Assembly (NCBI GenBank): GCA_963082975.1
Contig: OY720344.1
Location: 65,748,546 to 65,812,545 of the forward strand
Direction of reading: 5' to 3'
Origin: Labia minor
Taxonomy: Eukaryota; Arthropoda; Insecta; Dermaptera; Spongiphoridae
DNA: 64,000 nt
Part shown: positions 23,291-64,000 of the stretch, piece after piece
Layout: every line of letters starts with the position of its first letter
Position numbering within the stretch: position 1 is the stretch's first letter
Program-made: the position numbers and the translations under genes
Notes under the pieces: model-generated
Told to the model about the DNA's origin: nothing
Seen by the model: the letters and a program-made list of their open reading frames with translations, nothing else
Databases searched by the model: none

Positions 23291-23660
23291 TGCTTAAATA
23301 TTTTGTATGTCGCCTTCACCTTAAAGACCATGATTTGTACAGTTGAGAAGAAAAGATTACGCCCTGGAAGGATACCCCTGAATGTACATCAAGATGCTAT
23401 GTTTTGGGGAATATTAAATGCAATGTGTAACAAAGCAATATTTAAAAAATATATGTTTACTAGTGAGATATATATCATAAGAAATTTTGTAAATACAATT
23501 TTGTAATTTTATTTAATTTTCAAATAAATATTGTGTATATTACATAGATCATTATTCGTTTCATTTAGATACGTAATTTACATAAAAGATTGTGGAATTT
23601 TCAGTTAAGTGAAAAATTATTTATCTAAATATATGTATATATATATATATATATATAATA

Positions 23661-31099: not shown

Positions 31100-32691
31100 T
31101 CTTATCTTATTATGCTAGCTAAAATTGTATATATGTATTTATCTATATATATTGGTTCTCAAAAACCGCTCTAACGATTTTTTTCAAATTCACACTAGAT
31201 ATAGTATTTATAAAGAAAAATTAAGTTTTATTGATGATATCTCTTGAAACATACAGCTTCATTATTAATTTCTTAATTGAAAATTATATATGGAAAACGT
31301 CAAAATTTTTAATACTGCCTGCTAAGACAGTAAAAAAATGACAATTTTTTATCTAAATACATATAGTCCAGCGGTTGGACTGATGTTTTAACGAGTGGAT
31401 TTCGTCGGTTCGAAACTCGCCGGGTGAATCGTTATTTAAAAATGAAAATAATGATTTTGTTATTTTTTTTTCTTTTTATCTATTGTTTACTTTTTAATAA
31501 ATTACTATTCTATATTTATTTATTCATTGTTCTTTTATTAATAAAGTTTTAGATAGTTTTATAAGTTTTAATATTTTTTCAATAAAATATTATTCAATAT
31601 ATTTATTAATATTATTTTATTTATTATTATTGAGTACCCGAAGTTCCATTCATTTTAATCAGATTGATGCAATGATGCAACAGTTAATAATTGTAATATT
31701 GTAATAAATTTCTATCTTGAAAATTGTTACATATTATTCAGGATATTTTAAAAACTATTTCTTTCTTTAATTAATATTCATTTTTTCTATAAGTCAGATA
31801 TATTTCCAAATATTAAATAATTTTTGAAGTGAAAACTTCTTTAGCGGCGTTGAGCACTTTTGCGGGATGGGGAAAAAGTATAGAACTCGCGTGATCGTGA
31901 CCAACACCATGAAACCATCTGCTTTCAAATTTCTTATAACAGAGCGCGAAATTTGAATTGTCATTAGAACTGTTTTATAAATTATCTCTAACATATAAAT
32001 ATATATTTATTATGTAAAGTTCATTTCATATATACATATATAATCAAAATTATACGAAATGAACTTCACATAATAAATATATATTTTATGTTAGAGATAA
32101 GAATTATAAAACAGTTCGTATTGCAATATTTTAAACAAAGTTGTGTATTTATATATATATAAATATAAGTTACAAATTTGTTTAAAATATATGTTTAAAA
32201 TAATATATAAGTTATATATATATACATGCATATGAAATTCATCTTTCTCGTGAAATAGCGCGAATTTCGTCTGTTTTAAAATTTCTTACGCAGAAGTTTT
32301 CACTTCTGTCGGCCAGTCCCACGACTGCCAATTTTGCTTTTTTAATTCCGAAAAGCTGCAAAGCACGTTTTTTTGTCTTTAGTTTGTTTTATAACCACTT
32401 GGGGCGCTAAACAGTTTTTCAAAAAAACACTATAGAAAAAAAATATATGTACCTATATATTATATATTTATGTATTATTGAGGAGCACAAGTTCATTAAT
32501 TTTAATCAGATTGATGCAAATGTGTAACATTTAATAATTGTAATAAATAATTAAAGAATTGTGTATCAATATTTTTTAAAGGGTAGAGCGAGAGCTCGGT
32601 GTCCCAGGTATTAATATTACCAGCCAAATCCAATAATAATGAATCATTTTTTTTAACTTAAGTACCGAGCCGAGGCTCGGGGTCCCGGTAC
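31100..32691 (+). mobile_element. Helitron-like element inserted in UGT-C exon 4
   Basis: 1592 bp. It starts TCTTATCTTATTATGCTAGC and ends with the GAGCCGAGGCTC hairpin and GGTCCCGGTAC. It sits exactly between A (31099) and T (32692) of the exon and duplicates nothing: the two exon halves add up to 209 nt, the intact length. Precise A/T insertion without target duplication is the Helitron hallmark, though the last bases are GTAC and not CTRR. The body has no Rep/helicase frame and is composite: a middle block (about 31770-32400) with a large palindrome is absent from the copies in UGT-A. Confidence 0.82.
31968..32116. repeat. Large palindrome nested in the Helitron-like element
   Basis: Arms of about 65 bp. 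The left arm starts AACTGTTTTATAA and runs through TCTCTAACATA to AAGTTCATTTC; the right arm is the reverse complement and ends TTATAAAACAGTT. Near-identity of the arms suggests a recent inverted duplication or MITE. Non-coding. Confidence 0.8.
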
Positions 32692-41048: not shown

Positions 41049-42924
41049 AGGGTTGTTGCATAAAATGTTTTTTTCGCTGAAATTTTTTTTTAAACTATAT
41101 TGAAAATAGTAAATACGAATATATTTAAAATAATAATTAATACTTTGACAATTAATTATAATTTATTGAAAACGCTTAAAAAATTCGAATTTAACTACGT
41201 GGCTTAAACGGGTTCTGATTAGACGGCCGCTTCGTGACGTCAAATGCTGGTATACAGTCGAGCGTCTAACCTACCGAAACGTATTTGTGCAAGTTTTTTT
41301 ATCTTTTTCCATCAAGTCGCCGTCAAATTCGCAGTAATTGTGAAACATGACACAGCCAGGCTAGGAAGCAAAAACAGTATAGTATCTTTTTTTGGCCAAA
41401 AAATAAGAGATTTTAAACAATTTGCTATTAATGGAACAGACTTATTAAAAATCCTATTTGCTTGACTAGCAGACATGCCAAACTCATCGCCTAAACGGGA
41501 AAATGTATCATTCATTTTGATTTTGGTTAAAGTTAAATATATGTCTATATGAATTAAACCTGTCTTGTTGTGTAAAAGATCTATGACATACAGAAACTGC
41601 TCTGGTATACCTATATACATTTTAGGTTTCCTTTTTATAATGGAAAGCTTTAACTTTCTGGTAATAATTCTTCTGTCGTGTTATATTCTTCCGAAAAAAA
41701 ATATTCTTCACTACTTTTAAAAGTAATGGTATCCTCACTAATCGATGAAATATTATCGATAGTATCATCAGTAATATAACTACTGGATTTATCGATACCA
41801 CTTTTTTCTGTCTTTATATTTTGCTTAATAGGTTTGCAAAGAATAGCTTTACTTCTGTAATATGTCTTTGTTTGTATACTGACATCTTTAAATCGAATTT
41901 CCAAATTATTTATTTCATCATCAATATCCATATTTTCTTGAATCAAAGAATGATCGGTAAGATCCATCACTACTTGAGAACATCCTGCGATTATTTCATC
42001 AGCCATTATTTTCTCTGATTCTTCTTTTTCCATATCCTGCAGAGTTTGCATTCTTTTCCGTTTTGCAGCTCCTGGTCTCATATCAACTTTATCGCTTGTA
42101 TGCTGTCTATTTTTCTGACAATCGAAAATATGTGGAATTGTTTTTTTTTCAATTGGATTCGTCCTCCCTTTATTTTAAATTTGCAATAATTTTCTATATC
42201 TTCTTGCAACTAACCAAGTATTTTCATACTTATTAAAATTTATCCATATATTTATTGATTTAATAAAATAAGAATACATTTATGTAAATATTTAAATGTA
42301 TAATTCTTATATTTAATTTAACATAATAGGATATTAAATGTAATATCTTTAATAATATTGTTTAAAATTACAAGACGAAAATTAGACGAAAATAAGTATA
42401 TCATTTTGATTATGTTATTGTTGGTTATATATTATTGTTCTGTATAAATCATGAATTTATCATACGTACGTTGAAATGATCTTCACAACAAAACAAACAA
42501 CTTGTTGGTGGATTCGCTACATCGTCACGTCTTGCCATTTTCAACCACATTTTTCGACGTTTAATATCACGTGGTACTGTTAAAAATACTTTGTTCGGTG
42601 TTTTTATACTTGTATTAGTGCACTCTGGTACAAAGCACCACTTATACGATTCTTTCTTCTTTGAATTATTAACATTTTCACTGATATTCTCCATTTTCGG
42701 TCGATTAAATGTATCACTCGTATCACCTCGTGTACACAAGTCGGTTCCGTATAGGGTGCGTACCAGCATGTGACGTCACGTAGCAAGCGCGAAAAGAGCA
42801 CGTTTCAAACGGTCTTAATTTTCGTTTTACTATAACTCAGTTAATTATTAACATTTTTTTTTCTTAATTTGTTACGGAAGTGTTGTTTAAATAGTAAAAT
42901 AAAATTTTTTTGTGCAATGACCCT
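41049..42924 (-). mobile_element. ISL2EU (IS4EU)-type DNA transposon, deleted
   Basis: 1876 bp with ends AGGGTTGTTGCATAAAA and AGGGTCATTGCACAAAA (inverted), flanked by AT on both sides, the dinucleotide target of this superfamily. Subterminal inverted repeats (CGTGACGTCA then ATGCTGGTA) lie about 190 and 150 bp inside the ends. The minus strand encodes THAP and helix-turn-helix parts of the transposase, but the DDE nuclease domain is gone. Confidence 0.82.
41312..42769 (-). pseudogene. THAP/HTH transposase remnant of the ISL2EU element
   Basis: First exon 42769-42470: THAP zinc finger, with Cys-x4-Cys (CFVPEC), a basic KRRKMWLKMARR helix and the closing Cys-x2-His (CCEDHF), then a donor GTACGT at 42469. 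A second coding block (about 42165-41650) opens with TNPIEKKTIPHIFDCQ and ends in an acidic linker (EEYNTTEELLPES) at a stop. A third block in another frame (41620-41312) has QFLYVIDLLHNKTG, LTLTKIKMNDTFSRLGDEFG and SQANRIFNK, the helix-turn-helix that precedes the DDE domain. It then ends early, so no catalytic domain remains. Start Met: either 42769 or the later MENISEN. Confidence 0.8.
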
Positions 42925-44590: not shown

Positions 44591-44767
<177 letters not shown>

Positions 44768-44999
44768 TTATAGAAGAAGAGAAAAGAAGAAGATCAACTA
44801 AAATACATTGGAAATGATAGATCTTGGTTAATTATAGGATTTATTGCAAAATAACTGAAATTTTCAATTGTATTAGAATGAATAAAGAAGAATGATTAAT
44901 TAGAGAGCTTGGTTGATTGAATAACATTCAGAAGCAATCCGTTAATTGTGAGGGGTAAAGTTGACGTGTTAGGTCTAACAAAGTGTAGGGCAAGGGGGA

Positions 45000-45300
45000 G
45001 GAGGAAGGAAGGGGTTGGTGGTTTCTTTTCCGATTAGTCTTCCTTCATCTCGGAAGACACGTAGCTTCTGCCACATACGTCCTTCACCGGGACACCGGGA
45101 ACTTGTTGGCATACGAACGAAAGATCGGCCAGTGACTATATTTAAATAGGTCTCTCGGGAATGTCACCGCAGTCCTGGCTATACTTATAGGGTGGCGAGT
45201 CCCGGCGAATGCCAAGTCAACAACAAAATCCATCCGTGGCACAATCCATACTCGCTTTCTCACTGATAACAATCTTATCAGGAGTAGCAAATGGTTGATA
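45000..45300 (-). other. GC-richer island of unknown nature
   Basis: Clearly less AT-rich than its surroundings. On the minus strand one frame is open for 68 residues (45290-45084). Another gives CQQVPGVPVKDVCGRSYVSS ending at a stop behind a possible acceptor (AAATATAG). I recognise no protein family, and neither frame matches Rpb8. It could be an exon, a promoter region or conserved non-coding DNA. Confidence 0.3.
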
Positions 45301-47170
45301 CCATTTCAAACATAAACAAACAATTTTCTATGGACATATTTTTAATGAAGATCATTTTTAATGAAGATTCCTTGTAAACATTATGTATTCTTAAAATTGC
45401 ATTTAATAAAAAATAAAGATTATTCTTATTATAATCCACCATCATAAAGAAAAAAAATCAACTTTTTTTAAGAAGAAATTATTTTCCTAAATAGATAAGC
45501 TTCAAATAAGTAAATGTCAATTCAAATTAATAAAATCTAATAATTAATATTACATAAAAAAAGATTAAATATAAAATTACATCAATTTATAACTCCAATA
45601 GGAATTTATTATACGTGTCACTCAGAAGCCAATGATTAACTCCACATTTAAAGAAACTGAGAAAATGAAGCTTGTAGAAAATTCAGGTTTATTGATTACA
45701 GAAAAATGTATATTGCATTGCAATATTAAGATTATCAAGTTCATTATTCACTTCATGTGGTGCAGATTACATTACATTAAATTACTAGCAAAATTTTAAA
45801 AATTGGAGTTGATCGGTTTGGCTTCTGAGTAGCACATATATATGTTTTGTATGCATTTTGGTAATTACACCATCTCAAAACCTTTGCGAAAAAATCAAAT
45901 ATATCAATAAGCATGAAATTTTATTTAAACTTTACATATTCTTATTAAGTTTAATATGTTAGAATTTTATTTTAGTTTAGTTCACACAGATTAAAAAATA
46001 CTTCAACTAATGTCTTTAGTTAAATCTATTAGTTTAATATTTATTTATAACTAGTAATAAATAAATCCGTTTCCTTTCAAAATTTTAATGATTTTTAAAG
46101 TTTCAAGTAGTAATTTATGGATTAGGTATTATTTTGTTTAATTTATATATATAATTATAAAGAATCATATTGTATTAAGTTGGATCAATAGTAGTCACTC
46201 ATCCCTTCTTTTATTTCGTGAATACCCGTCTATTTCCTTTTAAAATATATGTTTTACTATGCTAGAATATTATGTCTAACAAATGAGGGTAATACAAAAT
46301 AAAAAATTTAAAAATAAAAAGAATAAAAGATTATATATATATATATATAAGGAGGAGGAATTAGAGTGGAATCGTCAAAAGAGAGAGAAAGAGAAAGAGA
46401 GCATTGGAGGTTATTGGCTCTGAGTCAATGAAGACAAAAGTATTTTAGTAAAAATAGAGTTAAACGAAAGAAAATCAATCTTAAGATTGAGATAAAATTA
46501 ATACAAATATTTTAGGAATGTATGCGAAAGAAATTGGGTAAAAAGTTCTCTGATCAATTATATAAAAAAAACATCAACGCGATTATATAAATATTTATAA
46601 CATTTATCTATTACTGAGTGAAATTAGTTTGATAGAATTTATAATAAAATTTAATTCTCTAATTATTAATTATTTAGTAATGAAATTACTCTATAAATTA
46701 TGAACGACTATTTTAATAAAAAAACTTTTCTGACATGAAAAGGTAATCTGATTAGTTGTTTTTCAGTTGGTCATATTAATAGTTACAATACTTATCTAGT
46801 AGAAAATCAAACAAACTGAAGAAAATATTAAAATAATAAGCGCCTGGAGCACATACATATGACGCTCTTTTCCATAGAACACTTTTTAGAATGGCCGACA
46901 AAATCATACGTGTGCCAAAATTACAAACACAATTATTTAACTATACAAACTATTGTATAATACAGTCATGGCCTAACCTTTGAAAAAACCTCTCTTGATG
47001 TATTTATAAATATTTGGAGTCTATAAAGATATGTTCCAAAATTTGTTTTTTTCATTTGTTGCATTCTTGTAAGCAATAAAATAAATAACAAATTCTAAAA
47101 CTATTAATTCAAAATTTACTTAAAGTAGGTAATTAGTTGATGATATCGATGAACCTCTATTTATTATTTA
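45301..47170. other. AT-rich region without recognisable gene
   Basis: Nearly 1.9 kb of AT-rich sequence with an AT microsatellite near 46332 and a GAGA-rich patch (46374-46410). No reading frame, RNA gene or transposon end could be supported. Confidence 0.5.
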
Positions 47171-47174
47171 AGTA

Positions 47175-47770
47175 AAATGTAAAAAATCTGGAGTGTCTCC
47201 ACTCGACTATCTCACAATTTTGAATTGGATTAATTAATATATATTATATTTAAATTAAATTTAATTAATTAAATTATAAATTAAAATTAATAAATAATAT
47301 TTATTAAACCAACGCGTGATTAGTTAGTTGATGGCACCACTTCAAGTGCTAGAGGGTGATTGCCAGTCAACGTGTTAAAAAATTAATTCCGGTACTTTCA
47401 TCGATTCAATCAAGCTGAAATTCTATATATAGCAGTTTTATACAATTTTTATTCATGTGAAACATAATCTTTATTTTTATGGTCAGTTTAGAGAAAAAAA
47501 TAAAAACGTGGTAGGTAATGACCTTCTTCCGAAAGAGCTAAATTTCCCAAAAGTTGAGAGAAAACTACGAATTTTGAATAATGCCCGTGTACCAAATTTC
47601 ATTATTTTACCTCAAACCGTTTTTGCGTAATCTTGTCTACATAATCACACACATTTTTCTCAAACTTAGTGAAAATGACTCAGGGACCTTCAAAACGCAT
47701 AAAAACATCAAAATCTCGACATCGAAAATTTTCGTAATCGCAATACACTCTCTGGCGAGTTAGTAATAAT
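47175..47770 (-). repeat. Repeat R1, copy 5 (minus)
   Basis: Reverse complement of the 40150-40856 copy, entering with CTGGAGTGTCTCCACTCGAC and leaving with GCAATACACTCTCTGGCGAG. Both ends are present, so it defines the family length together with copy 4. Non-coding. Confidence 0.75.
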
Positions 47771-48654
47771 TTTCTGATGAATATTCTTTCTAGTCTTATC
47801 AAGTTGGATCTAAGCGTTATAGAGGAGTAGTACTACAACGACTCCTCTCAACCTTTATTTTGATACTATTGATTGGAAACTTACTTTTTAAACCAAATAA
47901 CTCACCACTTTTGATCACCTAGAATGGATGGATCTCTAACAGGCTGCAAAAACAAAATATTTAAGAAATGAACCCAGACTCCAAGGTTGTTAATCAGACA
48001 CGTTCATTAATTGTATAGATATATTTATTTATTTATTTTTGTTATTGTTGAAATTATCTGAAGAGTAATATTGTAAAAATAAATTGCATGTTTAAAAGCT
48101 CAAATCATAATAATTAATTCCAAATTTTTGGCTCACTGGCCCTAGCGGAAACATTTTTACAATGAATATATATTATTATTGCAAACAAAAAATTAATATA
48201 ATATTTTATTTTAAATTCTAATATTCAAATATCATTTCATTTAAATAATTTATTCTAAAAGTTCTCATTTTAATTAATTTAATAAAATATTTAGATCATA
48301 TTTAACTTAATTTTTATTTATTCTTTTTATATATTTTAATATTTCTTCTTTTTCTATTTGAAAGAGAAAGGTTAAAAAAACAGAATATATTATTTTTAAT
48401 GTTTTATGAATACAAAAATATTTTCAAAACGTCAATTAAAATGACTAAATTATATTATTTTTGTTTTTGTTTCAATTATTAATTACAACTATATTTTAAG
48501 TGCAAAAATGGTTTCTTGGTTATATAAAATTAAAATATGATTTTTTAGACAAATGATATAAACGAGATGTTTTAAATTTTGAGTATTTTTATTAATTTTT
48601 TTTTTTTATTAATAGGCTTCTTTTTTTATTTTTAATTTTTAATAAATTTTCTTT

Positions 48655-48920
48655 TTTTATATGATATTAATAAAAATTAGAATATTTGAATTTTTTGAAA
48701 TTTTAACACATGTAATCAATCATATGCATAGAGAATAGAAAATTTTGAAAATCAACTTGGTATTAAATTAAAAAAAAAATACTGATATATAGAATATATA
48801 GACTATTCGAATATAATTTAAAACTCTTTCTCTCCTATTTTAAATTTAAAAAAAACGGAGTGTTAAGAAATTAAGATGCCTTATACAGCATGAATGGGTA
48901 AATGAATTGGGCTGGCAGAG
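48655..48920 (+). repeat. Dispersed repeat, second copy of 5455-5745
   Basis: Shares about 260 bp with the UGT-A intron copy, including ATTTTGAAAATCAACTTGGT and GACTATTCGAATATAATT. Unclassified and non-coding. Confidence 0.6.
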
Positions 48921-49739
48921 GAGGCAATTTATAATTTTCTTCTAATTCAGATTAAGGACAAATCGGACAACATTATATCAAATATCGCTAAGAACATTCA
49001 ATATTTCTGTACACAAATTATTCAGAGTCTTGGCAAAGCTCACAATCAGTTTAAATTGAAATTTATATAAATTAACAAAGTGAAAATTTTTATTTGTTTA
49101 AATTGTATTATAATGAATCGAATAAAAATTAAATATATAGATCACAAGAGAAGCAAGAAAATAACTGTTTGATGGAGGTCGAACATGACAGAAACTAAGC
49201 GAAATCTTCATGTTGCGATTAATAATTTTCAAATCTATCACCACAGAATTAGATAAGTTTCTTTTAAGGGAGGAAATTAACTATGATCTAGAAAAATTAA
49301 TAAATGAACTTAATAATAAAAAACAAATAAATAAATAAATTTAAATTAATAATATTAATGAATGTATTGTTAATTTATCTATAGTTTTATATATAGTTTT
49401 ATACCGTTAATTTTTATAAAAGTCTAACTTTGCATTTTCTCAAATTTCATTATAATTAAAAGTATTCAATAAAAATCAAGCAATGAAAATAAAATATCAA
49501 AATGTAATGATCAAGAAATATTATACTCTATTTCACTATTATAACATATACAATACTTAAGAACCATAGGCGGAGGAAATATTAGGAGATATCATTGCGG
49601 GTTCAGGCCAAATCGATCAACATTAATTAAGATATTTTCATTATGACAAATATTAGAAAAAAACCGCGAATTCAATATTTCTGTTCACTAATTATTTGTA
49701 GACTTTAGTAAATCATACGTATGACTCAATAGATCCGGA

Positions 49740-50653
49740 TAAACTTTTTCAAATTTTGATCTTCAAATTTGTCAAAGAGTAGGATGCGGAAATCAATTGT
49801 AAAATATTAGGTCACCCAGGCGACTTAAATATAATAGGAGATTCGGCAATTGCAATTACAGATAGCTAGGAAAAATTAATCGAGGTAGGAAAAGAGATGA
49901 GGTTTGAAATTAATAATGATAAATAGAAATATTTAGAAACAAAGAGGAACAGTATTAACATACAAAATCTTAATATACAAAATGTAGAATTTGATAATGT
50001 AGAAAAATTGAATGTAATCACGAAGGATAATAATATCTGAGAAGAATTTAAATCGAGGTTGCAGTCGGGAAACGCCTATTATTATGCAGTAAAGAGGCTT
50101 ATCACATCAAAATTATTATCAAAGGGAATCAAAATTAAAATAAATAAAACAATTATTTTATCTGTTGTATTATATGGGTGTGAGGCATGGTCTATGACCT
50201 TAGAAGATGATAGTAGATTCAGAGTATTTGAGAATAGGATTCTTCCCCGTATTTATGAGCCAAAGGAAGATGAGGACACCAGGGAATGGCCGAGATTGCA
50301 TAACGAGAAATTGCATGACCTCAATGCATCTCCAGAAATAGTTAGGGTTATAAAAGCGAGAAGGCTGCGATAGGCGGGGCACGTGAACTTTCGAGTACCG
50401 TTGAGCCACATAGATTGATAGATATAACATATACAATAATAATATATATAATTAATTTACTGATTAAATTAAAATATATTTTAAATAAACACTCAAAAAG
50501 AAATGAATATATTATGTTATATACTGATTGAAACAAAATGGATGTAAACATTTTACTACTTTCAACCAAATTCTATGTACTACTCGGGGGTACAGGGGGA
50601 GGCGGAGCCCCCGTCTAGGTTTGAGGAGCGCCGAAGGCGCTCTTTGCAGCTAG
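49740..50653 (+). mobile_element. LINE tail joined to a Helitron 3' end
   Basis: 49740-50400 holds a LINE C-terminus: AYYYAVKRLITSKLLSKGIK, SVVLYGCEAWSM, RVFENRILPRIYEPKEDED, WPRLHNEKLHDL and IKARRLRWAGHV in near-continuous frames. It is followed, as at 10576 and 21539, by GATATAACATATACAATAAT-type sequence, two GC hairpins (GGGGG-AGGCGGAG-CCCCC; GAGCGCCGAAGGCGCTC) and CTAG before T at 50654. The reverse transcriptase core is absent. The 5' end of the Helitron was not found. Confidence 0.68.
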
Positions 50654-50944
50654 TACTAAATAAATCAGAATTTCTCAAACTGTGATCCCTTAGAACCTAA
50701 TGGTAGTATCTACAGTATAGTTATTTTAAGTAATAAAATCATTTTAGTGGTCATTTTAATGAATTTTTTGAAGGAAGATTCTGTGGTAGTATCTTCAAAA
50801 AGTTTAAGAATCGTTGAAATAAATTATATCGAATAATAAATTTGGGGGCAGCACATCTTTTCTGAGAAGGTAATATTATTTTATTTTTTATTTTTTTTTT
50901 GTGTGTGATAAAACTAACATTTTCTATATCATGAAGCTGAAGAT

Positions 50945-51032
50945 ATTGACCTGACGCAATGGGGCAGTGGTGTTAGTGGCCGTGGTTTTATAAAACACAA
51001 CCAGCTAACCACACTGCCAAACTGCATCAAGT
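50945..51032 (-). ncRNA. mir-34: miR-34 precursor hairpin
   Basis: On the minus strand the 5' arm (51019-50996, 24 nt) is identical to insect miR-34-5p as I remember it: seed GGCAGUG, ending GCUGGUUGUG. The loop is about 11 nt (UUUUAUAAAAC), and the 3' arm (CACGGCCACUAACACCACUG) pairs with it. Pairing continues outside the mature duplex (TGATGCA with TGCGTCA), as needed for Drosha processing. miR-34 acts in ageing, neuronal and steroid-timing control in flies (family knowledge). It lies on the same strand as miR-277, 9.8 kb downstream of it. Confidence 0.96.
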
Positions 51033-53684
51033 TAAGTGAAAACTCGCACACTGCAAACCGTCGCTACAAAATTAAACTTCTTGACGATAAAAATGGTAAC
51101 AATCCAAAAGAAACAAACTTTTATCAAGTAATAATTCTTACCTAATAACTGTTTTTTCTCAATACTTAATGACGATATATGTTTATAAAAAAATTGGTAG
51201 ATATATTTAATTATACATTTAGATACAATAATAACATATAAAAACATGCTAAAATTAAATTAAATAAAATTTAGTTCGATTGTAATGTGTATATAAAATA
51301 AAATTTTATTGATTCGATTGATAAAAGATTTCGGTTTATGGAATTTTGGAGTCAATTTTAAAATAAAAAAAAAAAAAAAATAAAAAAAAAAAACAACAAT
51401 CTTCAAAATGAATTTTGCAATGTTACACCAAAGATCTTGGCAGACAACTTGGTAAATGTGATTATGCCATAACTTGGCAATTGCCGTACCATTATTTATA
51501 TCAGCCACGCAGAAGAATGTTGTATGGAAAGAAACAGAACAAGATTAAGGCAAAAACACATAATCGTATGATCAAACAATAATAAGAACATTAAAATAAT
51601 ATAATAATAATAATTTATAATTTATTTATTTGATATATTGTAGTTACAAAATAGTATTCTAAAGAAAAAGGTATTTGAATATTTACAAATGAGAAATAAA
51701 TATAGAACAAAAATAAAATGGGAAATTTATTTAAAAATATAATATAATAAAATTTATCTCAAAATTTATGATTTATTAATAAATTAATTTAACAATTTTT
51801 AATGCTGCAACTTAGTGATTTTAGATTACAGATTGACAAATGGATCTGATTAGTTCCTTTTTCCATTCAAATAAAAAACCTTATATATATCCTTATATAA
51901 GGTGGAAATTGAAATTGGTTACACTTTGGTTTATAAAATGCTATCCACTGTTTGTAGATATTTTTCTTTTAAAAATGAATAAAAAAAATTGAAGTGTTTT
52001 TTATGAATAAATTGAAAAATAAAATTAATCATTTCTATAATTCCACAAAATTTTTACTTAACATTTTATTATTTATTTCAGTAAAAGTAATAGTGTTGTG
52101 TTATCTTAAAGAAACAATTTTAAAGAAATACATCATCTTTATCACAATTTCATCAAATTAAAAAAAAAACAAAAACAAATTAAAAGCACTATTTTTATCT
52201 ATAATCGAAATCATCGAAAATTTTCCTAGCATTTCTGAATATCTATTTAAAAGAACTTTTTTTTTATTTTAAAAAAATATAATTTATTTAATCATTTTTT
52301 TTATTGAATTAATATAGATCTGTAAATCTATATAAAAAGAAAAACAAAAATTAAACTCACGAAGATAAATATTATGAATCAGTTCTGGGGATATATTTAT
52401 ATTAGAATAAAAAAAAATCATTTACTGCATTCATTTGACTTAAAGCAATGACGAAGACAATTATTTATAAACTCGGAGGAGTGAGAAGCCAAACAGATGG
52501 ACCAATAATAATAATATAAATAAAATTAGATGTAAAATTATATATATATAAACTCAAAAATATGTGATATTATTAGTATATAAAAAATAATAAATATATA
52601 GTTTATTGAACTTTAGAGTGTTTCAATTATCAAAGGAGTGGATTTATTTTATTAACTTTAATATGCAATGAAATTGTGAATATGACATTATTTTAAAAAT
52701 AATTTAATTTTGGTCAATTAATTTGTCCAATAAATACAATTACTATATCTATATCTAAAGATTAATATTAAATAATTATGAGTAGTAGGTAAATATAATT
52801 ACATATATATTTGTAAAGTACTTTTATATTATTAATATATTTTTTTTAACTATTTTTATTTTATTTATTTTTATTTTATTATAATTTATCAATTCTTTTT
52901 GAAATTTTTAAAAATTATTTATGCAAAAGTATCTAATTATATTATGTTAGTTAAAGGTGGAATGTTTAAAAAGACAGACAACTTTCATTCAATCAGTAAT
53001 CTACAAGAAAAGTAGTTATGTTAACAAAACTTAATGTGTGAATAATTGAGTGATTAGTGCATGTGAAAAATAAAATAATAATAAATTCATAGAATGGAAA
53101 TTTTTCAATTTCAATATTACATTCGTTGGAGAGTAAAATAAATCATTTATGGGGTAATGACTATAAGAATAGACTGACTATAAAACATTTTTTTTAAATA
53201 ATATAGAAATATAATATTACAATCCTTTAATTATTCTCATAAAATATGAAAATGAATATGAAAATACAACAATTTATATATTCACAACCTTTTTATATTT
53301 CTAGAAAAAATAACTTGAATTTATGTAATGATTTGTGGTCTGCAAAGAGGATATATAAATTTTATATTTAAGCTCTGTAAATTTTACAGTAGATTTTACT
53401 GGGACATGAAATACCTTCCGGCTTGATATTGGATATGAACAGGAGTCATTAATAAACATAATGAGGTTCGACAAAAAATAAATTAAAAATAGAGATTCAT
53501 TCAATAAATTTACTTATAAAATTAATAAGATTATGTTAACACTAGCATTTATTTTAGATTTTATTTTTCAAACATATTTTTCCTATACACAGTGACCACT
53601 CAAAGCTGCGTACAGATTGTAAACCTAGAGCACATACAAAATATTCGTACTTCCAAGAAATTTTGAGTTGAGATCTCATAGACG

Positions 53685-53718
<34 letters not shown>

Positions 53719-55080
53719 TATATATAGAGAATTCCAAAATAGATAAAATATATTAACAAAAATGAAGTGTTTGAAATGAAAAAAGTAAAGAGATAAGTAA
53801 AAGTATGATTTTTTAAATATTATATATAAATATCCTTTTAACACCATTCATTAATTAATTGAACCGATTTGCAACAAATAATCAAAGTCTGATTGCAATT
53901 TATCTTCGAAAAAATATTTGCCTCATAAATTTTAATTATGGATCTATTAAATGTTTGGGAATTAGTCAAATTTCTGTAATATTTTATTTAACTAATCATT
54001 TCATAAGTTAAATTTAGTTTAATTAAAAATTTAAATTGAGAATGTATTATTTATTATATTTTGATTTTTAAGTTGTCATCTTTTGTCTTAAGTCTCTTAT
54101 TTTAAACACATATCTTTTTGTTATAGACTATTTCTTTTGATCTTTTCAACATTCCTAGAAAATTGATTTACTTTTCTTCTAAGTCATGTTTAATGAGATT
54201 TTAATTTTTAGCAGATGCTGAACAAAACCACTGAAGGGTAAAAAATACCACGAAATCCACTCCTTTGATATATATATTAAAGAGTTTTTAATGTTTTTAC
54301 TAAATAATTTTGAATTCAATGTTTAACCTTAAAAAAAATAAAGAAAATAATTTATACTACTTACTTGGTGAAAGTTAATGTAATAAATTTTCATTTAACT
54401 AAAACCCTTCCTATTTAATATATTAAAATGCTTTATAATTTTTTTTTTTTAAATTTAATCTCCAATTAAAAAGTTTAACGCTAGTTATTAATACAAATAT
54501 AAAATTACATATTTTCTAATAGATATCAAAAAAGTATTTCAATTAATATAATTTTTCTTATTTTGATCAAGATAATGCATATTAGATAAAGTTATATTTA
54601 TATAAGGAATAATTAAATTTGATATAAATGAAATACCAGATAGTGAGTGTTGACGTCATTAATTTATAAATATTCATATGAGAACTTTAAAGAATTTAAT
54701 AAAGTAATTTATTACTCTTATATTAACTATATCGGGAACACTTATATAGACAATAAGAAATTTTGTTATATATAGATTAAATAAATGAATCAAATAAATG
54801 CATATATCTAAATTACTTAATTTTTCTAAAAATTAATTAATATATATAATAAATAAAAAGAAATTATAATTTTCTCATATTTATTTATTCGAATTTGAAT
54901 TGTTATAGATAATGATATCAATGATATATAATTTTAATTGCATATAACTAAAAATTAAGTTAATTATAAAATTAATTAAAAACATATTTTGGAAAAGTAG
55001 ATTAATTTGTAATTTATATATATATGGTTAAATATAAATTAATTTCATTTATTTTTAAATAAATAGATATTTATTTATTT
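51033..55080. other. AT-rich region between the microRNAs
   Basis: About 4 kb of AT-rich DNA with A/T homopolymers (51361-51392) and AT microsatellites (53688-53712). I see no gene or intact mobile element. If miR-277 and miR-34 share a transcript, this is intron or spacer of it. Confidence 0.5.
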
Positions 55081-55089
55081 ATATTAATT

Positions 55090-55660
55090 TGAGATGGTGT
55101 ATATTAAAATTAAGAATATATGATCCAAGGACTTCTTAGGTTGGCACTTGATAATTGACCTAAATGGATTTACGCTTATTGGCAAAAGATTCCAACATTG
55201 TAGCAAATAGGTCAATGTCATTAATAAACATCAATGCATTGGAACACTATGTAGAAAATAGCTATTTTTATTGGACATTTATATGAAAAAAGAAAAAGTC
55301 CAAATCCTCCATAAAGGAACTCGATGATTGCCAAATAAAAAGAAAAAAAGGAGACAATGCGTTTCAAGCCACGTAGATCATGACTTGGCATACAAACTAT
55401 AATTCATAATTAATGTTCTAAAAAAAAATAGATAAAATATAATAGATATAGAAAAATATTAAGAATTGGTTGTAGTCGTTTTAATAATTCAAATTAGGTC
55501 AAAAACCAAAAGATGGCTGATGTCGACTTTCGAATGAATGAATTCACGCATGAATGAAGATGAAGAGTATAGGACAATATCTTCAGGATAAGGAAGAACT
55601 GGTTGTCTGACCTTGTGGTTGTATTTCAAGAACAAACTTTCTATATCCATCTGATTGTAT
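55090..55660. other. Less AT-rich block, possible conserved non-coding DNA
   Basis: A stretch with more mixed composition, lacking repeat landmarks or long frames. It contains TTGACCTAAAT (55156) and AATAGGTCAATG (55206), inverted half-sites of the AGGTCA type used by nuclear receptors. This is only suggestive. Confidence 0.25.
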
Positions 55661-56083
55661 TTATTTTAATACAAATATAAAAAAAAGAAAATTTTTTGGA
55701 ATTAAGGATTATAATATAAATATAATATTATAAATAAGATTTATTATATGATATAAGAGGATTTCTTATACTCTTAAATGCACGCAGTATATTTTTTTAT
55801 TATTTGAGTAGACAAGATTTTAAATTTAAATGTCAACTTTTTATCTTATATGTATCAAAAAAAAAAAAAACAAGTAAGAAATATTATAATTTGTATTTTG
55901 TAAATCAATCTTTTCAAAATTATTTAATACTAATTGATCTTTCAATTAATTTAGTTGTTAATGATAAATTACTAAACAAATTGAAATTTTGAATGAAATT
56001 ACTGAATTAAAGATTTTCTAATGAAAAAATATTCTTTGAATATATTATTAAAAAATTAATATTTAAAGTTAGTCACGGACGTG

Positions 56084-56130
<47 letters not shown>

Positions 56131-56519
56131 GAAAAAATATATAAATTTATTAAATTATATTTTATAAAATTATATTTTGTTTTTTTTTCTAAATCCATAA
56201 GTTTGTATTTATTATATATAAGAGTAATATTCTTATAAAAAATAATTAATTATAAATTTGTTGAAAATTTCTTTGTTTATTAATTACAATTATCGTTGAA
56301 TATGTTATAATATATAAAACTATAGGTTAATTAAAAAGAAATATATTTATATTATTTAGTATGGATAAAATTAGTTTGGTATTCACAAAGATATATATTT
56401 TTTATAATTTACTACAAAATATAATTTACTACAATATTACAATCAAAAGTTATGATATTTAAATGTATATTCTATATATTTCAGAAATAACACAGGTATA
56501 TTATGTAAGGTAACAAACA

Positions 56520-56880
56520 CCCTTTGGCATAAAAACTAGTGTTAGCTTAGCAGAGTGTATGGATGTGGATGCGGAAGCAAAGCTGAGCCGATGGATGGAA
56601 GCAGTGGGCCCCAGAGAGCCGCCTTCTAAGCCCACCTTACCCTCCTAGAACACTTAAGAGAGGGTAAGGGCGGGTAAAGAGGGGGCAATTAGGTTCCAAA
56701 GAGAAGATGCACATAGTTGTAAGATGCAAGTTCGATGCTGGCAGCATTCATAAGCAATGCAGAGAAGGGTAGAAGGTTCTGAAGTAACATTCATTTCTTA
56801 GATAATACATTTCTCCTCCTAGGAGTACTAGAATAGAATGGAAAGGAATAAATATACCTCACCTCAACTATACTTGATCG
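56520..56880. other. GC-richer island between miR-277 and miR-34
   Basis: About 360 bp, clearly richer in G and C than its flanks, without an open frame or known microRNA. It has GGGTAAGGGCGGGTAAAGAG and a CTCCTCCTAGGAG palindrome (56813-56825). It could be an exon of the primary microRNA transcript or an enhancer. Confidence 0.3.
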
Positions 56881-57910
56881 CTAGCAAAAAAAAATCTTAT
56901 TTCAGATTTAACATCCCAACATACCTTGGAAAGGGGATACGATATCTGTATTCATATGACATTTCTGTTATATTATACAAATAAAAATAAATTGAAAGTT
57001 TATAAAACAGTTTGTCTCCTTTTAATCAATTAAATTAATTAATCAAATGGATATAATATTAAAGGAAAAAGCTGAAAATAAAAAAAAATACGTTTTTTTA
57101 TCCTAATGATTATTATTTATAAAAATAAATAAATTTTATTTTTAAATTTAATAAATAAATACAGAATTACAAAGATTGTTTTATAACTATTATTAAATTT
57201 CATTAAAAGCTAATAATAATCAATAAGTTAATCAATAATTATCTATTTTATAAACAAATTGAATTAATTAATATCTTCATTATACTTGTACACATATTTC
57301 AGAGAATTTTCAGAGACATGATTAAATAATAGAAATTCTAATTTTATCTAAAGTCATTTTGTAAATTTATACTTTAGGAAGTGATTGTACAGTTAATTAT
57401 TTCCATTAACATATTGTTTTGAAATTGAACTTTGATTAAGAATTAAGTTTAAATTGAAATAAGAGGAAGTTGTACGAAAAGGATAGGTAAAAAAAGAATC
57501 CTTAAATTATGTTTATATAAAACAACAAAATCAATTATCATATGAAATAATGAAGTTTAAGTGCAATTAAAAAAAATTAAAAATTAAATTTTATTCATAA
57601 ATAGATAAATTATATATTACAAATCAAATATTAACACAATTTTAATTATTTAATATGTAATAGTGGAAAATAATTTAAATCATTCAACATAGAGAATGCA
57701 TCCAGAATAACCCCTTCCCTTTGTTGAATGATTTTCATCTTGCCAATCCTCACTTAGGTAAATATTTTTAATTTATATAACAATTTACATTTTTGCATGA
57801 CCTCTCCTAAACCAAAGGAAAAAAATATTTGAATCGATGCCTGATTAGAGAGTTATTCATTAAAGGGATTTTTATTATTAATTCACCACAGATTTGTATA
57901 ATTTATTTAT

Positions 57911-58024
57911 TTAGTTAAATAAATGTACAACGTTTCGATTGCTTATTCTGCAGTCTGTAAACGTACGGTACCTGATAACGATTGCAGAATAAGCAGTCAA
58001 AACGTTATATATTTATTTAGTTAA
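57911..58024. repeat. Inverted repeat (MITE-like hairpin)
   Basis: Arms of about 45 bp: the left arm is AAATAAATGTACAACGTTTC then GATTGCTTATTCTGCAGTC, the right arm its reverse complement from GATTGCAGAATAAGCAGTC to AACGTTATATATTTATTTAG. The AACGTTTCG/TTCTGCA motif recurs in insect transposon ends. It is not a microRNA because the arms match dispersed-element style. Confidence 0.7.
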
Positions 58025-59115
58025 TCGTTTAATAAAAATATTTATCATCCCATTGACCAATATTGAATAGTATATCAGATCGAGTAGCATAGTATAAAAA
58101 TCACTTTTTTATTATATTAAACAAATTTATATATATATATATATTCTGATGGAGATAACCTTGCTCATTTCTCGTATAATTTATATTATTCATTATCTTA
58201 CAAGGCTATAATTATCTTTAAATTATCCAACATAAAACAAATTTAACCGGCGCCAGACTTTGGCCAGGTAATTCATTTGTAAGAATTAAGTTATTCACAC
58301 TTTTTTAAATAAAAATTAAACAAAAGAAAAATAAAATCCTTTTTTTTACTTTGATTTAATCAATATAAAAATTTAATCTATATAATATCTTATCAAATAT
58401 TCATTTATCTCATATATAAATAAAAAAGGTATATTTAATCAATCAATCGAAATATTTATTTTTTGTTAAACATGCAGGTAAAGTATGTATACTCTCATCA
58501 ATATTTTAAATCTAGAATTATTAATAAGTAATTAATATTATTACAATTAATTAATATCTACTTATTTAAAGATAAAAGAAAAATGTGTGTGTAAAAGAAA
58601 TATTTAAATTATAAAAAAATTGGTGTTTAGAATTTTTTAAATATATCGTATATACTTATATATATATAAATATTATATATCATTCTAAAATAATAGTGTG
58701 TTTATACATAATATATTGATTTATGTTTATATATTATATTATATAGATAACCAGAATTAGATATTAGATATTATTTCTAAGAATAACTAGAAAATGATAG
58801 AATGATGAGCAAATAGAATAATTTAAAATTCGTTAATTGATATTATAAATTACTAAAATTTAAATTAAATTTATTATTATTCAAGTTTCTTCTATATACA
58901 TTAAACTGTTATTAAATGAGATTTTTTATAAATCATATTTTCCAAAAAGATTTAAAAATAAAAAAAAATGTAATATAATATAATTTTCTCAATTTTGATA
59001 AATTTGAAAGTTAATTAATTAAATAAACAGAAACAAATTGAAAATGAGTGTCAAATACAATCAGCATTAATAAATAAATACAGTTCATATGAAATGTTAT
59101 TAAAAAATAAATAAA
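58025..59115. other. AT-rich spacer
   Basis: Very AT-rich, with AT runs near 58128 and 58660. No gene, RNA or mobile element recognised. Confidence 0.5.
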
Positions 59116-59119
59116 TTTA

Positions 59120-59900
59120 ACTTGGTTTCTAAAAGAAAAAAAAAGAGGGGAATTGCTAGTAATAGGGGATGGGAGGGGGAAATGGTGGAGAAGAAAGGAT
59201 GTTCCTTCACCGGTAGATCTAATGATAGAAAATCCAAGTGGAAATCACTTGGAAAAGTGATCTCGTTTTATGACTCTCCTCCTTCTATGCTAATTTCATT
59301 GGAATTTTTTGATAATTCTCATCCGCTTCATAAACAAGTTTGTTAATTAAATATATTTATACAAAAATAAAGTATCTATCTGGTTTCAAAATTAGTAAAA
59401 CGTGTCTTTTTTTTCTTTAACTAATTAATATTTATTTTAAAATAAAAAAAAATAAAAAAAAGATAAGAGTAAGACAAATAAGTTTTCAAGGAAGGGAGAT
59501 GTCAACAGAAATGATAAGAAACTTTTTGATATTCACTTCTCATGATTTATTGATAATAGAAATGCAGAAGCGCAGTGTATATGTTACAACATACAGCAAG
59601 AGGGTAGAATTTGTGTATAAATAATTTCTAAAGGGGACGAGATGTAATTTAAAGGTGCTGGGTGCGAGGGGGCCGGGAGGGACCGGTGGAGATCGTCCAA
59701 GAGATGCAACCAAAATAAACGGGGACATCGATGGCAAAAAGATCCCAGTCTTCTCACCCAGCAGCTATTGACCGTTGGCAAAACAATATTCCACTTTGGG
59801 AAAATTCATCCATACGAGGCCCCACCCCCATTCCACCCCACCTTTCTCTCCACCAATGAAAAGCCAACAAGTGGGTGACTTCAATCGTTCTTTTATTCCA
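59120..59900. other. Two GC-richer islands upstream of miR-34
   Basis: 59120-59345 and 59560-59890 stand out from the AT-rich surroundings. The second holds GGGTGCGAGGGGGCCGGGAG and, on the minus strand, a CCAAT-type box (TTTTCATTGGTGGAGAG) and GGGGTGGGGCC. Short frames on both strands do not resemble proteins. They fit promoter, enhancer or non-coding exon sequence. Confidence 0.3.
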
Positions 59901-60814
59901 ATTTACAAACAATAGTTCACAAAAAAAATGCATTATTCATTAAAAGATTAGTAATTAAGAATCACTTCACTACTTATAATAAGCCTTGAACGATACAATA
60001 AGAAATGTTATTTTAATAAATTAACCAAATCGATCGAATATTTCTTATATTTATTTTTTTTATTTATAAAATAATATTTTTATTTTATATAATATTTTAC
60101 TTTCTAAATAATTTTAATTTTTATTAAATAAATATTTAATTTTATATATATCATTTTTAAATAAAATAATTCCAATGAAAGAAAACTCATTAGAAATTTT
60201 AAAAATTATAAATATTTATGTTTCCATTTATACAATAAAAATTAATAACAGAGGCTTTCAATTCCACTTTTCAATAAAATTATTAAAATTTAACATTTTT
60301 TCAATTCAAACTACCCCCCTTTAATGAATGACACTCTTAAACTATAACAGTTGAATCTCTCCTCATTAAGATTCTAGATAAAGATAGACAAAATTAACTA
60401 TGAAAAATAAGATGAATAATACATTATTATTATTATATTTATTTGAGATAAATAACTTCTTGATCGAAGATCATTTTCTAGGTGTAAATATGTCTATGTA
60501 TATAAAAATAGAACTTGCAGCTTGTTTGACCTTTGATTCTTTTACAGGATGAAAATATAATATTTAATTTGTTTTTATTTTTATTTAAACGAGAGTTGTA
60601 CTAAAAATATAATAATAACACAAGTCAAATAAGCCGCATCTGTGATGATTTATTTTATCGGTTGTTTTTTTGTTTGTTGTTATTTTTCTATTTTATCATT
60701 ATAAACGTATTACTTAATATTCCCTAGAAGTTCAAACACTGATTAAAAATCTGGCTATTTTGAGGGAAATGGATGACAAAATTGAAGCCAGTCATTAGCG
60801 GGGACGGATCGTGC

Positions 60815-60895
60815 GTGCTGGAATGTCGTACCAGATAGTGCATTTACAGATTTCAATTGACAGCCTTGTAAACGCGCTTCTGGCACGGACTCCAG
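60815..60895 (-). ncRNA. mir-277: miR-277 precursor hairpin
   Basis: The minus strand carries the 5' arm (CGTGCCAGAAGCGCGTTTACA, about 60886-60866), an 18-19 nt loop and the 3' arm at 60846-60824. That arm is identical over 23 nt to insect miR-277-3p as remembered (seed AAAUGCA, ending GGUACGACA). The 5' arm resembles the fly star strand with a few changes that preserve pairing. Flanking bases (GUCCGUGCC and GCACGCACG) extend the stem. miR-277 is known in flies for control of branched-chain amino-acid breakdown and metabolism. It is expected to be cotranscribed with miR-34, and with miR-317, which is not visible. Confidence 0.96.
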
Positions 60896-61240
60896 GACTG
60901 GGCTGACAGCGAAGTCGCGAAGAGTCTTCCAAGATTATCCAGAGACCATTTATCACCATTTTATCGCAGAGCGGAGAGCATTCCATCAATATGAAACTCA
61001 CGCGAATTCATTTTTAAAATGGAAGTATCACACCAAGCGGGGGTCAAATTATAGCCAGAAAAAAAAGATGAGAACATAACAGACACACAAGAGCAGCAGG
61101 TTATGCAACCAGAGATTACGCAACATGCGCCCAGGGGTTAAAATTAAGATCGATTGACGGAAGAAGTCTCTCCCCGCGAAAGAAGGTGAAAATGAACAGC
61201 TTTCTACAGAAGTAGATATTATTTGGATTTCATTCTTTTA
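60896..61240 (-). other. Non-coding flank of miR-277
   Basis: GC-richer sequence next to the hairpin without a convincing reading frame or known microRNA. It probably belongs to the primary transcript. Confidence 0.35.
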
Positions 61241-61369
61241 AAATCAATATGAATATTAATTAATAATAAAAAAAGCAATGGTAATAATTACGTAACAATT
61301 GATTCGATCACATGCACAAAATGGCGTAGCAAAGAGATTTAAACAATTAAGGAGGAAATTGAAAGGATC

Positions 61370-61600
61370 ATGCATCTCTTCGGGGAGGTGGGGAGTATCA
61401 GCGTTTGCTCTCCCAAAAGTCAACACGAAAAACCTCCAAAAATAAGAAAAGAAGGGGCATTAAAAAAACGATTACTAAAGGGGGAATGAAAGAACAGGTC
61501 GCACAAGAGGGTGCACAGATCACAGAAAAGATGAAGAGAGAGTGAGCACAAACCAACCCCCTAAGGGGCACCCAGTTTTTATATCAAATGGACTCCATTA
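61370..61600 (-). promoter_or_regulatory. Possible minus-strand promoter upstream of miR-277
   Basis: On the minus strand TATAAAA lies at 61583-61577, followed by a GC-richer run (CTGGGTGCCCC) and a TCACT initiator-like site at 61545-61541. The TATA-initiator distance is about 40 bp, longer than the usual 30, so this is weak. Direction and position would suit a start for the microRNA transcript. Confidence 0.2.
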
Positions 61601-61679
61601 TACTAGACAAATAGATTTGATCTATTTATCTATATATTTATATAAGAAATGTATATATATATATTTCTAAATAATAGAA

Positions 61680-61980
61680 AATTTACATGATCCGGATCGA
61701 ACGTTAGTACAAACCGCAACTGAATAGGAATCATACAGTGGCAGCGAGTAAGAGACCCCCACCCTCCGCGAGAATCCCCTCCACGGCGGCAGTGCCACCC
61801 AGCGGCAAGACGCGAAACTACACTGTCTGGATGATGGCCAAAGGGCCGTGGCAACCCAATGACGACGATACCCACTTTGGCCCTAATCCCTTAAGCATTT
61901 GCCCCTCATTGCACTCAAAAAGAACAAATGACCTCCTCTGGCCGGTGATAAATGGTCTCTGAAGGAAAACTTTTCGACTT
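61680..61980. other. GC-rich island with spurious short frames
   Basis: The most GC-rich stretch of the last 15 kb. Short open frames occur on both strands (61738-61962 on +, 61875-61630 on -) but resemble no protein and start at non-ATG codons or in low-complexity text. It could be a promoter or enhancer, or a first exon of the microRNA transcript. Confidence 0.3.
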
Positions 61981-64000
61981 CCTTACAAATGCAGTCAGCC
62001 CATATAGATTTATAAATTTAAATTCTGGAAAAGGAAAGAGAAAAAATCAGTGAATGAATTAAATTGAATAAATAAAATAATAAATAAATAAATCATTTTT
62101 TTTTATAAAATCTGAAAATAAAATTTGGAATGCTATAAATATATTTAAATAAAAATTTTATCAAATAAATCTTTGATTAAAATTGACAAAATATTCAATC
62201 AATCAAAATAAAATATTGTAAAATTGTATGGGATACAAAAGAATTTTAATTTAATAAATAATTCTTATTTATCTATATTAAAAGATTTTATAAATATAAT
62301 TTGAGAAAAAGGAATTGTACACGCCCACAAAGATTTTATTCTAAAATTAAACTTCTCCTGCTAAAAGGTAGTGAAAGGAGCCTTTCTCTAAATATAACTA
62401 AATTATAAAAAAAAAATATTATCAGGTCAATTATTATGAAGTAATAGAACTAATAAGTAATTAATTACATTATTAAAGATATTGATCTTATCATCTGATT
62501 ATATGATAAAATTATTTATAAAAATTTACTTTAACTTTAAAAAATAATTTCATTTATTTATTTATGTATATACCAAATATTCTTAAGAATATAGAAATAG
62601 TAATATTAAAGTATTCTTAATAGAGAAATACATGTATTCTTTAAGAGAAATATCATATATTAAAAATATACATTTTTTTAAATATATAGAGAATGAGTTT
62701 AGAAGCTGGTATTTATAAATAGGTAATATAAAAAAAAACAAAATTGTCTTTATTCTATATTTAAGGTAAAGTGAGTATTAATATGTCTGTTTAAATTAAA
62801 TAAATTAGTATAAAATTAAAATATTTTTCTTTAATAAAAGTCGTTATAAACCAAGAAATTGAAGTTATTATATTTTATTCAAAATAATTTATTATTATAT
62901 AAAGATAAATGAAAAAAAAATATTTCTAGGTTATATTATACGTAGAAGGCAAAGTTGACAAAAGCCACCACGTCATTTACTGAGTGAATCAATGAATTTA
63001 ATAAAAAAAAATCATATGAATCCTAAGATAAATATATAATAATTAAAATTTAAAAAAGAATTTGGATTATTAATTTTTTAATAATGGATTTATCAAAAGG
63101 ATATTTGGATTTCAATTTTATAAGATAATTTTTAAATATTATATAATTTGAAAATAATTTGTAGCATGTTTTAGTGGGTGCGAGTATTTAGGTGCAAAGA
63201 AAAAAAATTTAAGTCAGGAAATCTATTCTATTATAATTTGTTGAATAAATATGTATGCAACAAATTATTGTATATAGTCATATTAATGTAAAAAAAGTAA
63301 TGGTTCAGATATTATAACAAAATTTTATTTTATATATTTCTTTTGTAAATTAGGCCCCCCATTAAAAAGAGTAATATTTAATAAATAAAAAAAAATACAA
63401 AATTCAGAAACAGCAATCTGGAAATAGATTATTTTATGGACATTATTTATAAATATTATAATTAGTTAAAAAAAATAGTGCTTATATTACTGGAACAAAA
63501 ACAAAATTGATAGGAAAAACTAATGAATGAATAAAATAAAATCAATAGAAAATATTATTCTTATTTTTCTATTTTTTCTATATACTAGAGATATTATCTC
63601 ATTTTTATGAATAAAAATTGAATCATTCTTAAATTCAAATATTAGATATGCCAATCATAAAATAAGTATTATTTTTAACTCTTTTTCATTTTCAGGTATA
63701 TAAACAAGCAAAAGTTATATATATATAGTAAGTTTATAATAATAGATTTAAAATATGTAGCATTAAATTTTTAAATATTGGATGATTTTCAAGAATAATA
63801 ATTCTTTTGTATTATAGTAATAGAAAATGTTTATTTAAAATTTATTTTTTAAATAATATATTATTGGATTAATAGAGGATAAGTATCACATAATAATGAA
63901 TATTATTTACTATTATTTACTTCCGTTTTTAAAAATGATCATTTAATTAATGGATTAATGAGAAAAAAATATTATTAAAGATCAACTATATGATTGATCC
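61981..64000. other. AT-rich end of the window
   Basis: About 2 kb of AT-rich DNA. I looked on both strands for the miR-317 mature sequence (expected upstream of miR-277) and did not find it. Nothing else is recognisable. Confidence 0.5.

Follow-up and report, generated by a model that had tools for sequence, protein, structure and literature searches.

Within a 64,000-base stretch of the genome of the dermapteran insect Labia minor (assembly GCA_963082975.1, contig OY720344.1, positions 65,748,546 to 65,812,545; hereafter the window) lie two microRNA (miRNA) genes, mir-277 and mir-34. They belong to the conserved, already known arthropod mir-317~277~34 cluster, and gene structure on both sides strongly supports the nesting of this cluster in the giant last intron of the gene for Rpb8 (RPABC3). 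Rpb8 is a core subunit common to RNA polymerases I, II, and III. The cluster is probably expressed mainly from a promoter of its own within that intron. A preliminary description of the window, made from the sequence alone, had recognized the two miRNAs and suggested that they share a long transcript whose span was stretched by AT-rich DNA.

The mir-317~277~34 cluster

A scan of the window against 4227 Rfam families at gathering thresholds returned two matches only, mir-277 and mir-34. To look beyond the window edge we added 60 kb of chromosome, giving a joined sequence of 124 kb in which the window numbering is carried on. At the same thresholds the added 60 kb gave one match, mir-317. The features of the cluster are as follows.

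67,121-67,211, minus strand: mir-317 precursor hairpin (Rfam RF00720, 67.2 bits, threshold 56)
67,133-67,157, minus strand: mature miR-317, 25 bases, exact
60,901-60,813, minus strand: mir-277 precursor hairpin (Rfam RF00730, 80.5 bits, threshold 43, E 2.4e-18)
60,824-60,846, minus strand: mature miR-277-3p, exact at full length, single copy in the window
51,026-50,955, minus strand: mir-34 precursor hairpin (Rfam RF00456, 65.1 bits, threshold 53.4, E 1.3e-12)
50,996-51,019, minus strand: mature miR-34-5p, exact at full length, single copy in the window

The mir-277 and mir-34 hairpins both score above the curated thresholds of their families, and they carry UAAAUGCACUAUCUGGUACGACA as the 3p mature sequence and UGGCAGUGUGGUUAGCUGGUUGUG as the 5p mature sequence, respectively. 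The miR-277-3p match was judged against the known insect sequence; the sequences given for dvi-mir-277 and dvi-mir-34 in PMC9170749 are identical to those found here. Both precursors are more stable than all of 200 dinucleotide shuffles (z -4.40 for mir-277 and -6.84 for mir-34). The first 22 bases of miR-34 have one exact copy in the whole 604-Mb assembly, and a 21-mer of miR-317 likewise has one exact copy genome-wide. Searches of the viral_contigs collection for miR-277 and miR-34, and of the genome_contigs collection for miR-277, gave no matches, as expected for an insect locus.

Exact matching and Rfam agree with the preliminary description that both mature sequences are present at full length on the minus strand at the positions listed, in the conserved order (277 and then 34). 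The separation of about 9.8 kb that it reported also holds, with 9,786 bases measured between the hairpins. It could not have seen the third member, as mir-317 lies 3.1 kb past the window edge; with up to three mismatches allowed, neither miR-317 nor miR-989 has a match in the window. Given the position of mir-317, 6.2 kb upstream of mir-277 on the same strand, the locus is the ordinary arthropod cluster: three members on one strand, in the order 317, 277, 34, over a total of 16.3 kb. This cluster is listed as occurring in most arthropods (PMC7523956).

The Rpb8 host gene

In the honey bee, the mir-317/277/34 cluster is reported inside intron 3 of GB10191, an Rpb8 orthologue (PMC2394756), and for this reason we looked for Rpb8 around the Labia minor cluster. 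With the human POLR2H protein as the tblastn query against the joined 124 kb, two strong matches emerged on the minus strand: 97,149-96,970 encodes Rpb8 residues 53-112 (E 1.8e-21), and 44,707-44,594 encodes residues 113-150 (E 2.1e-18). The remaining four matches had E values of 2 or worse. The second of the two exons falls within the window and had been overlooked in the preliminary description.

44,708-44,591, minus strand: last coding exon of Rpb8, including the stop codon TAA (38 amino acids aligned, 86.8% identical to human POLR2H)
44,709-96,970, minus strand: Rpb8 intron of 52,262 bp, GT-AG, phase 2 (part within the window, 44,709-64,000)

At the donor, exon bases CGATT are followed by GTAAGT, and the intron starts at 96,970. 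It ends at 44,709, in a pyrimidine-rich acceptor whose final bases are TTTTTGCAG. Joining 96,971 to 44,708 keeps the frame: the split codon TT+A gives leucine back, and translation reads through to the TAA at 44,591. The identity of the gene was also checked independently of the human query: the 98 amino acids encoded by the two joined exons fit the Pfam family RNA_pol_Rpb8 with E 6.9e-31, and among solved structures they match RPABC3 chains with a best E of 8.3e-49. Exons of Rpb8 thus flank the cluster on both sides on the same strand, and mir-34, mir-277, and mir-317 all lie in sense orientation inside this single intron.

Candidate promoters

Overall, the window has a guanine-plus-cytosine (GC) content of 26.1%; for 200-base windows the median is 0.255 and the 90th percentile 36.5%. 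Against this background, two compositionally distinct stretches stand close to the miRNAs.

67,751-68,450: CpG-rich island about 0.5 kb upstream of mir-317 (45 CpG, observed/expected ratio 1.11, peak GC 0.61, no repeat cover)
60,701-62,050: GC-rich stretch (GC 0.41), spanning mir-277 and 1.1 kb upstream of it

Judged by its position and composition alone, the CpG-rich island is the likeliest candidate for the cluster promoter. On the same grounds, the stretch at 60,701-62,050 may be the proximal promoter of a transcript carrying mir-277 only or mir-277 and mir-34. This larger stretch was absent from the islands named in the preliminary description, which had pointed to GC-richer DNA at 55.1, 56.5, and 59.1-59.9 kb. 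Parts of that list stand, at 56,451-56,900 and 59,501-59,950. Other parts do not: 55,100-55,400 has a GC content of only 31% (36% at 55,500-55,650), and 59,100-59,350 reaches 33%, its best 200 bases (59,151-59,350, 36.5%) falling just at the 90th percentile. A GC island over the mir-34 hairpin (50,901-51,150) peaks at only 0.40. Assignment of the islands as Rpb8 exons was rejected as both unneeded and unsupported.

A second CpG-rich island was found at 113,051-113,700 (41 CpG, observed/expected ratio 1.14). It is possibly a promoter of Rpb8 or of a neighboring gene.

Spacing and repeats

In Drosophila, mir-277 and mir-34 are about 0.9 kb apart. The preliminary description had attributed the wider gap in Labia minor to stretching by AT-rich DNA, an explanation that now looks weak: the window is AT-rich throughout, the spacer holds few repeat copies, and a 15-kb pea aphid cluster is on record (PMC2880305). 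Repeats that recur elsewhere in the window make up 104 of the 10,112 bases of the mir-277/mir-34 spacer, and on that limited count we rejected a spacer stretched by transposons. As spacing varies among insects, the wide gap at this locus is not remarkable.

The cluster lies in a repeat-poor stretch. By self-comparison of the 124 kb, repeat cover is 37.6% in 1-50,700, 1.0% in 50,701-60,812, 0% in 60,902-67,120, 1.5% in 67,212-80,000, and 18.9% in 80,001-124,000. Some caution is needed here, as other repeat-poor runs are nearby: another 10.1-kb stretch in the window has 7.9% cover (795 bases), and further, shorter runs occur upstream.

A repeat at 50,041-50,665, which ends about 0.3 kb from mir-34, has copies in common with 10.6-11.0, 17.6-17.9, and 21.3-21.6 kb. 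By eye it contains an open frame resembling that of a long interspersed nuclear element, without a Pfam match. No copies of it were found between mir-34 and mir-277.

Transcription of the cluster

Hairpins of this kind are cut by Drosha and Dicer-1. In Labia minor, Drosha and Dicer would process the mir-317, mir-277, and mir-34 hairpins out of an RNA made over a single minus-strand transcription domain that covers the cluster. The main source of this RNA is probably a cluster promoter within the Rpb8 intron, for which the CpG-rich island near mir-317 is the best site. Transcription may also start in the GC-rich DNA that directly precedes mir-277, and a constant background could come from read-through of Rpb8 pre-mRNA. 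With alternative starts and ends, the members would be produced in differing ratios, as reported for Drosophila, in which five major primary miRNA isoforms with alternative starts and ends are described (PMC6066331). One of these isoforms covers mir-277 alone, with a start between mir-317 and mir-277 (PMC6066331); the stretch at 60.7-62.05 kb in Labia minor matches that start in relative place.

Because mir-277, mir-34, and mir-317 share one sense-strand Rpb8 intron, one long transcription unit for mir-277 and mir-34, as first proposed in the preliminary description, has become much more likely, and we infer co-transcription of the cluster. Strand composition fits one long minus-strand unit. 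The best purine-rich segment of the plus strand is 44,501-120,000, its score is reached in none of 5000 block permutations, and its boundary at 44,501 is near the 3' end of Rpb8. Relative to the CpG-rich island, the downstream part of the intron has a purine excess of 0.062 and the upstream part one of 0.026; on the side of Rpb8 that carries UDP-glucuronosyltransferase (UGT) genes, the value is -0.015. The downstream part differs from the UGT side with p 3e-4 and the upstream part with p 0.04. The asymmetry does not place the promoter.

How the three miRNAs are transcribed could be explained in other ways. All of them might be cut solely from the Rpb8 pre-mRNA intron, with no promoter of their own. 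The sense orientation of the three hairpins in a single intron, the equal nesting in the honey bee (PMC2394756), and a strand asymmetry that extends over the whole unit, including the upstream intron, fit this arrangement. Against it stand the CpG-rich island upstream of mir-317 and the GC-rich stretch just upstream of mir-277. The Drosophila locus, moreover, is hormone-regulated and is described with Fmr1, and the accounts of the locus in PMC5125713 and PMC6066331 mention no Rpb8 host, which indicates that the cluster can be driven by promoters of its own. We regard exclusive dependence on Rpb8 as improbable. Alternatively, mir-277, mir-34, and mir-317 could each have a promoter directly in front of it and share hardly any transcript, or none. 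The GC-rich stretch directly upstream of mir-277 and the mir-277-only isoform of Drosophila (PMC6066331) would suit this, 9.8 kb is a long distance for read-through, and a preprint on the gonads of flies makes the case that mir-317 is transcribed as a unit apart from mir-277/34 (PMC11482908). However, mir-34 has no comparable GC island upstream, repeat cover is low across the entire cluster, and Rpb8 transcription, if this copy is the one in use, must cross all three hairpins in the sense intron. Fully separate units therefore seem unlikely. That the hairpins are no longer used and are adjacent by accident is barely credible: the mature sequences are perfectly conserved, order and strand are as reported in other arthropods (PMC7523956, PMC2880305, PMC2430712), and both flanking Rpb8 exons that were found are open and join in frame.

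Several results count against the favored explanation, in which a conserved cluster nested in Rpb8 uses mainly its own intronic promoter together with Rpb8 read-through, and the fly gonad preprint is one of them. The N-terminal exon or exons of Rpb8 (about 52 amino acids) were not found in 97,150-124,000, which leaves the gene model incomplete. The mir-317 hairpin folds only modestly better than its shuffles: z is -3.31, and 1 of the 200 shuffles equals or surpasses it. Ecdysone-response-like elements occur at chance level, with one site carrying one mismatch where 0.86 were expected. The proposal in the preliminary description that the GC-richer islands are exons has no clear statistical support. 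Home-made splice-site matrices, applied to the minus strand of 50.7-64 kb with 50 shuffles, gave 4 splice-like 5' sites (shuffle mean 1.62, largest 4) and 8 splice-like 3' sites (shuffle mean 7.22), counts at or near shuffle level. The purine-rich boundary is not sharp, as the A/T-only change point computed from the window alone is 48,950 rather than 44,500. The downstream and upstream halves of the intron are not distinguished in purine excess (p 0.12), and UGT introns on the plus strand have mixed skew signs, which leaves the asymmetry uncalibrated as a sign of transcription in this genome; for these two reasons, strand skew was rejected as proof of an intronic promoter. The preliminary interpretation as a whole is partly supported: order and strand have endured, whereas stretching by AT-rich DNA looks weak and the reading of islands as exons lacks clear support. 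On balance, we consider transcription mainly from an intronic cluster promoter, plus Rpb8 read-through, the probable explanation.

Additional hairpins in the spacer

A scan for stable stems detected two further structures between mir-277 and mir-34.

57,664-57,745, minus strand only: precursor-like hairpin of 33 pairs (-30.5 kcal/mol, versus -18.0 kcal/mol on the other strand)
57,914-58,022, no strand assigned: inverted repeat with 37 of 46 arm bases identical

The minus-only hairpin has a z of -6.31 in a 90-base window and -4.80 with flanks, and it is possibly an unannotated, lineage-specific miRNA; in that case the cluster may have gained it recently as a further member. The inverted repeat folds on both strands and was for that reason rejected as a miRNA. 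It is probably a small palindromic element, and it is absent from the list of hairpins that pass a uniform filter. That filter, applied to the whole window, passed 24 hairpins; four shuffles yielded 5, 3, 2, and 3. With the two known loci set aside, 50.7-64 kb holds 4 and 1-50.7 kb holds 16, at about equal density, so enrichment of extra hairpins in the spacer was rejected. Strings from the arms of the extra hairpins were found in none of the main texts searched.

Neighboring genes

On the plus strand, 1,533-33,939 holds three tandem exon sets of UGT (UDPGT) that are 88-95% identical in their longest shared stretches. This array converges with Rpb8 and ends about 10.7 kb short of its 3' end. 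Within the third exon set is a near-perfect palindrome (31,998-32,085) that folds on both strands (z -9.5 and -8.7). Between UGT exons, an open frame at 21,906-23,315 (minus strand) with integrase zinc-binding and core domains represents a retrotransposon remnant. Frames with a THAP domain and HTH_Tnp_4 at 41,312-42,775 (minus strand), which begin some 1.8 kb past the stop codon of Rpb8, are a gene derived from a DNA transposon or a remnant of one.

Comparison with other insects and implications

A close counterpart is the honey bee locus, which has the same three miRNAs in a single Rpb8 intron, as in Labia minor (PMC2394756). The Drosophila locus (Peony/CR45054, CR43459) has the same three members in one direction, with 277 and 34 downstream of 317 (PMC6066331, PMC11482908, PMC5125713), but differs in that the protein gene described with it is Fmr1. 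In Anopheles, the order is again 317, 277, 34, all on the minus strand, whereas the printed positions place 317 and 277 17.5 kb apart and 277 and 34 1.8 kb apart, versus 6.2 and 9.8 kb in Labia minor (PMC2430712). The pea aphid cluster EQ127026-cl1 contains the same three miRNAs in a total of 15 kb, regarded as unusually long by its authors, compared with 16.3 kb in Labia minor; the description of that cluster mentions no host gene (PMC2880305).

The cluster itself is known, and Labia minor adds a further insect in which it is nested in Rpb8; we do not claim that such nesting is unreported elsewhere. Among the matches listed in our literature search, which did not extend to subscription journals and supplements, Rpb8 was named with these miRNAs only in the honey bee paper (PMC2394756), and neither RPABC3 nor POLR2H was named with them.

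With these results, two miRNAs 10 kb apart become a defined gene structure, a complete conserved cluster nested in the gene for a polymerase subunit. For annotation, the lesson is that little can be read from spacing alone and that exons of a miRNA host gene may sit tens of kilobases away. Two questions can now be tested across insects: (i) whether nesting in Rpb8 is ancestral and (ii) whether the output of miR-34, miR-277, and miR-317 is tied to Rpb8 transcription or to a promoter of their own. One further reading, which we hold to be less likely than not, is that a cluster linked to aging and metabolism has been kept in an Rpb8 intron over long insect evolution, in both bees and Labia minor. 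Selection might hold the 52-kb, locally repeat-poor intron because the nested cluster, with a CpG-rich promoter of its own, depends on this chromatin domain. On this conjecture, the link to Rpb8 would have been lost in flies and possibly in mosquitoes.

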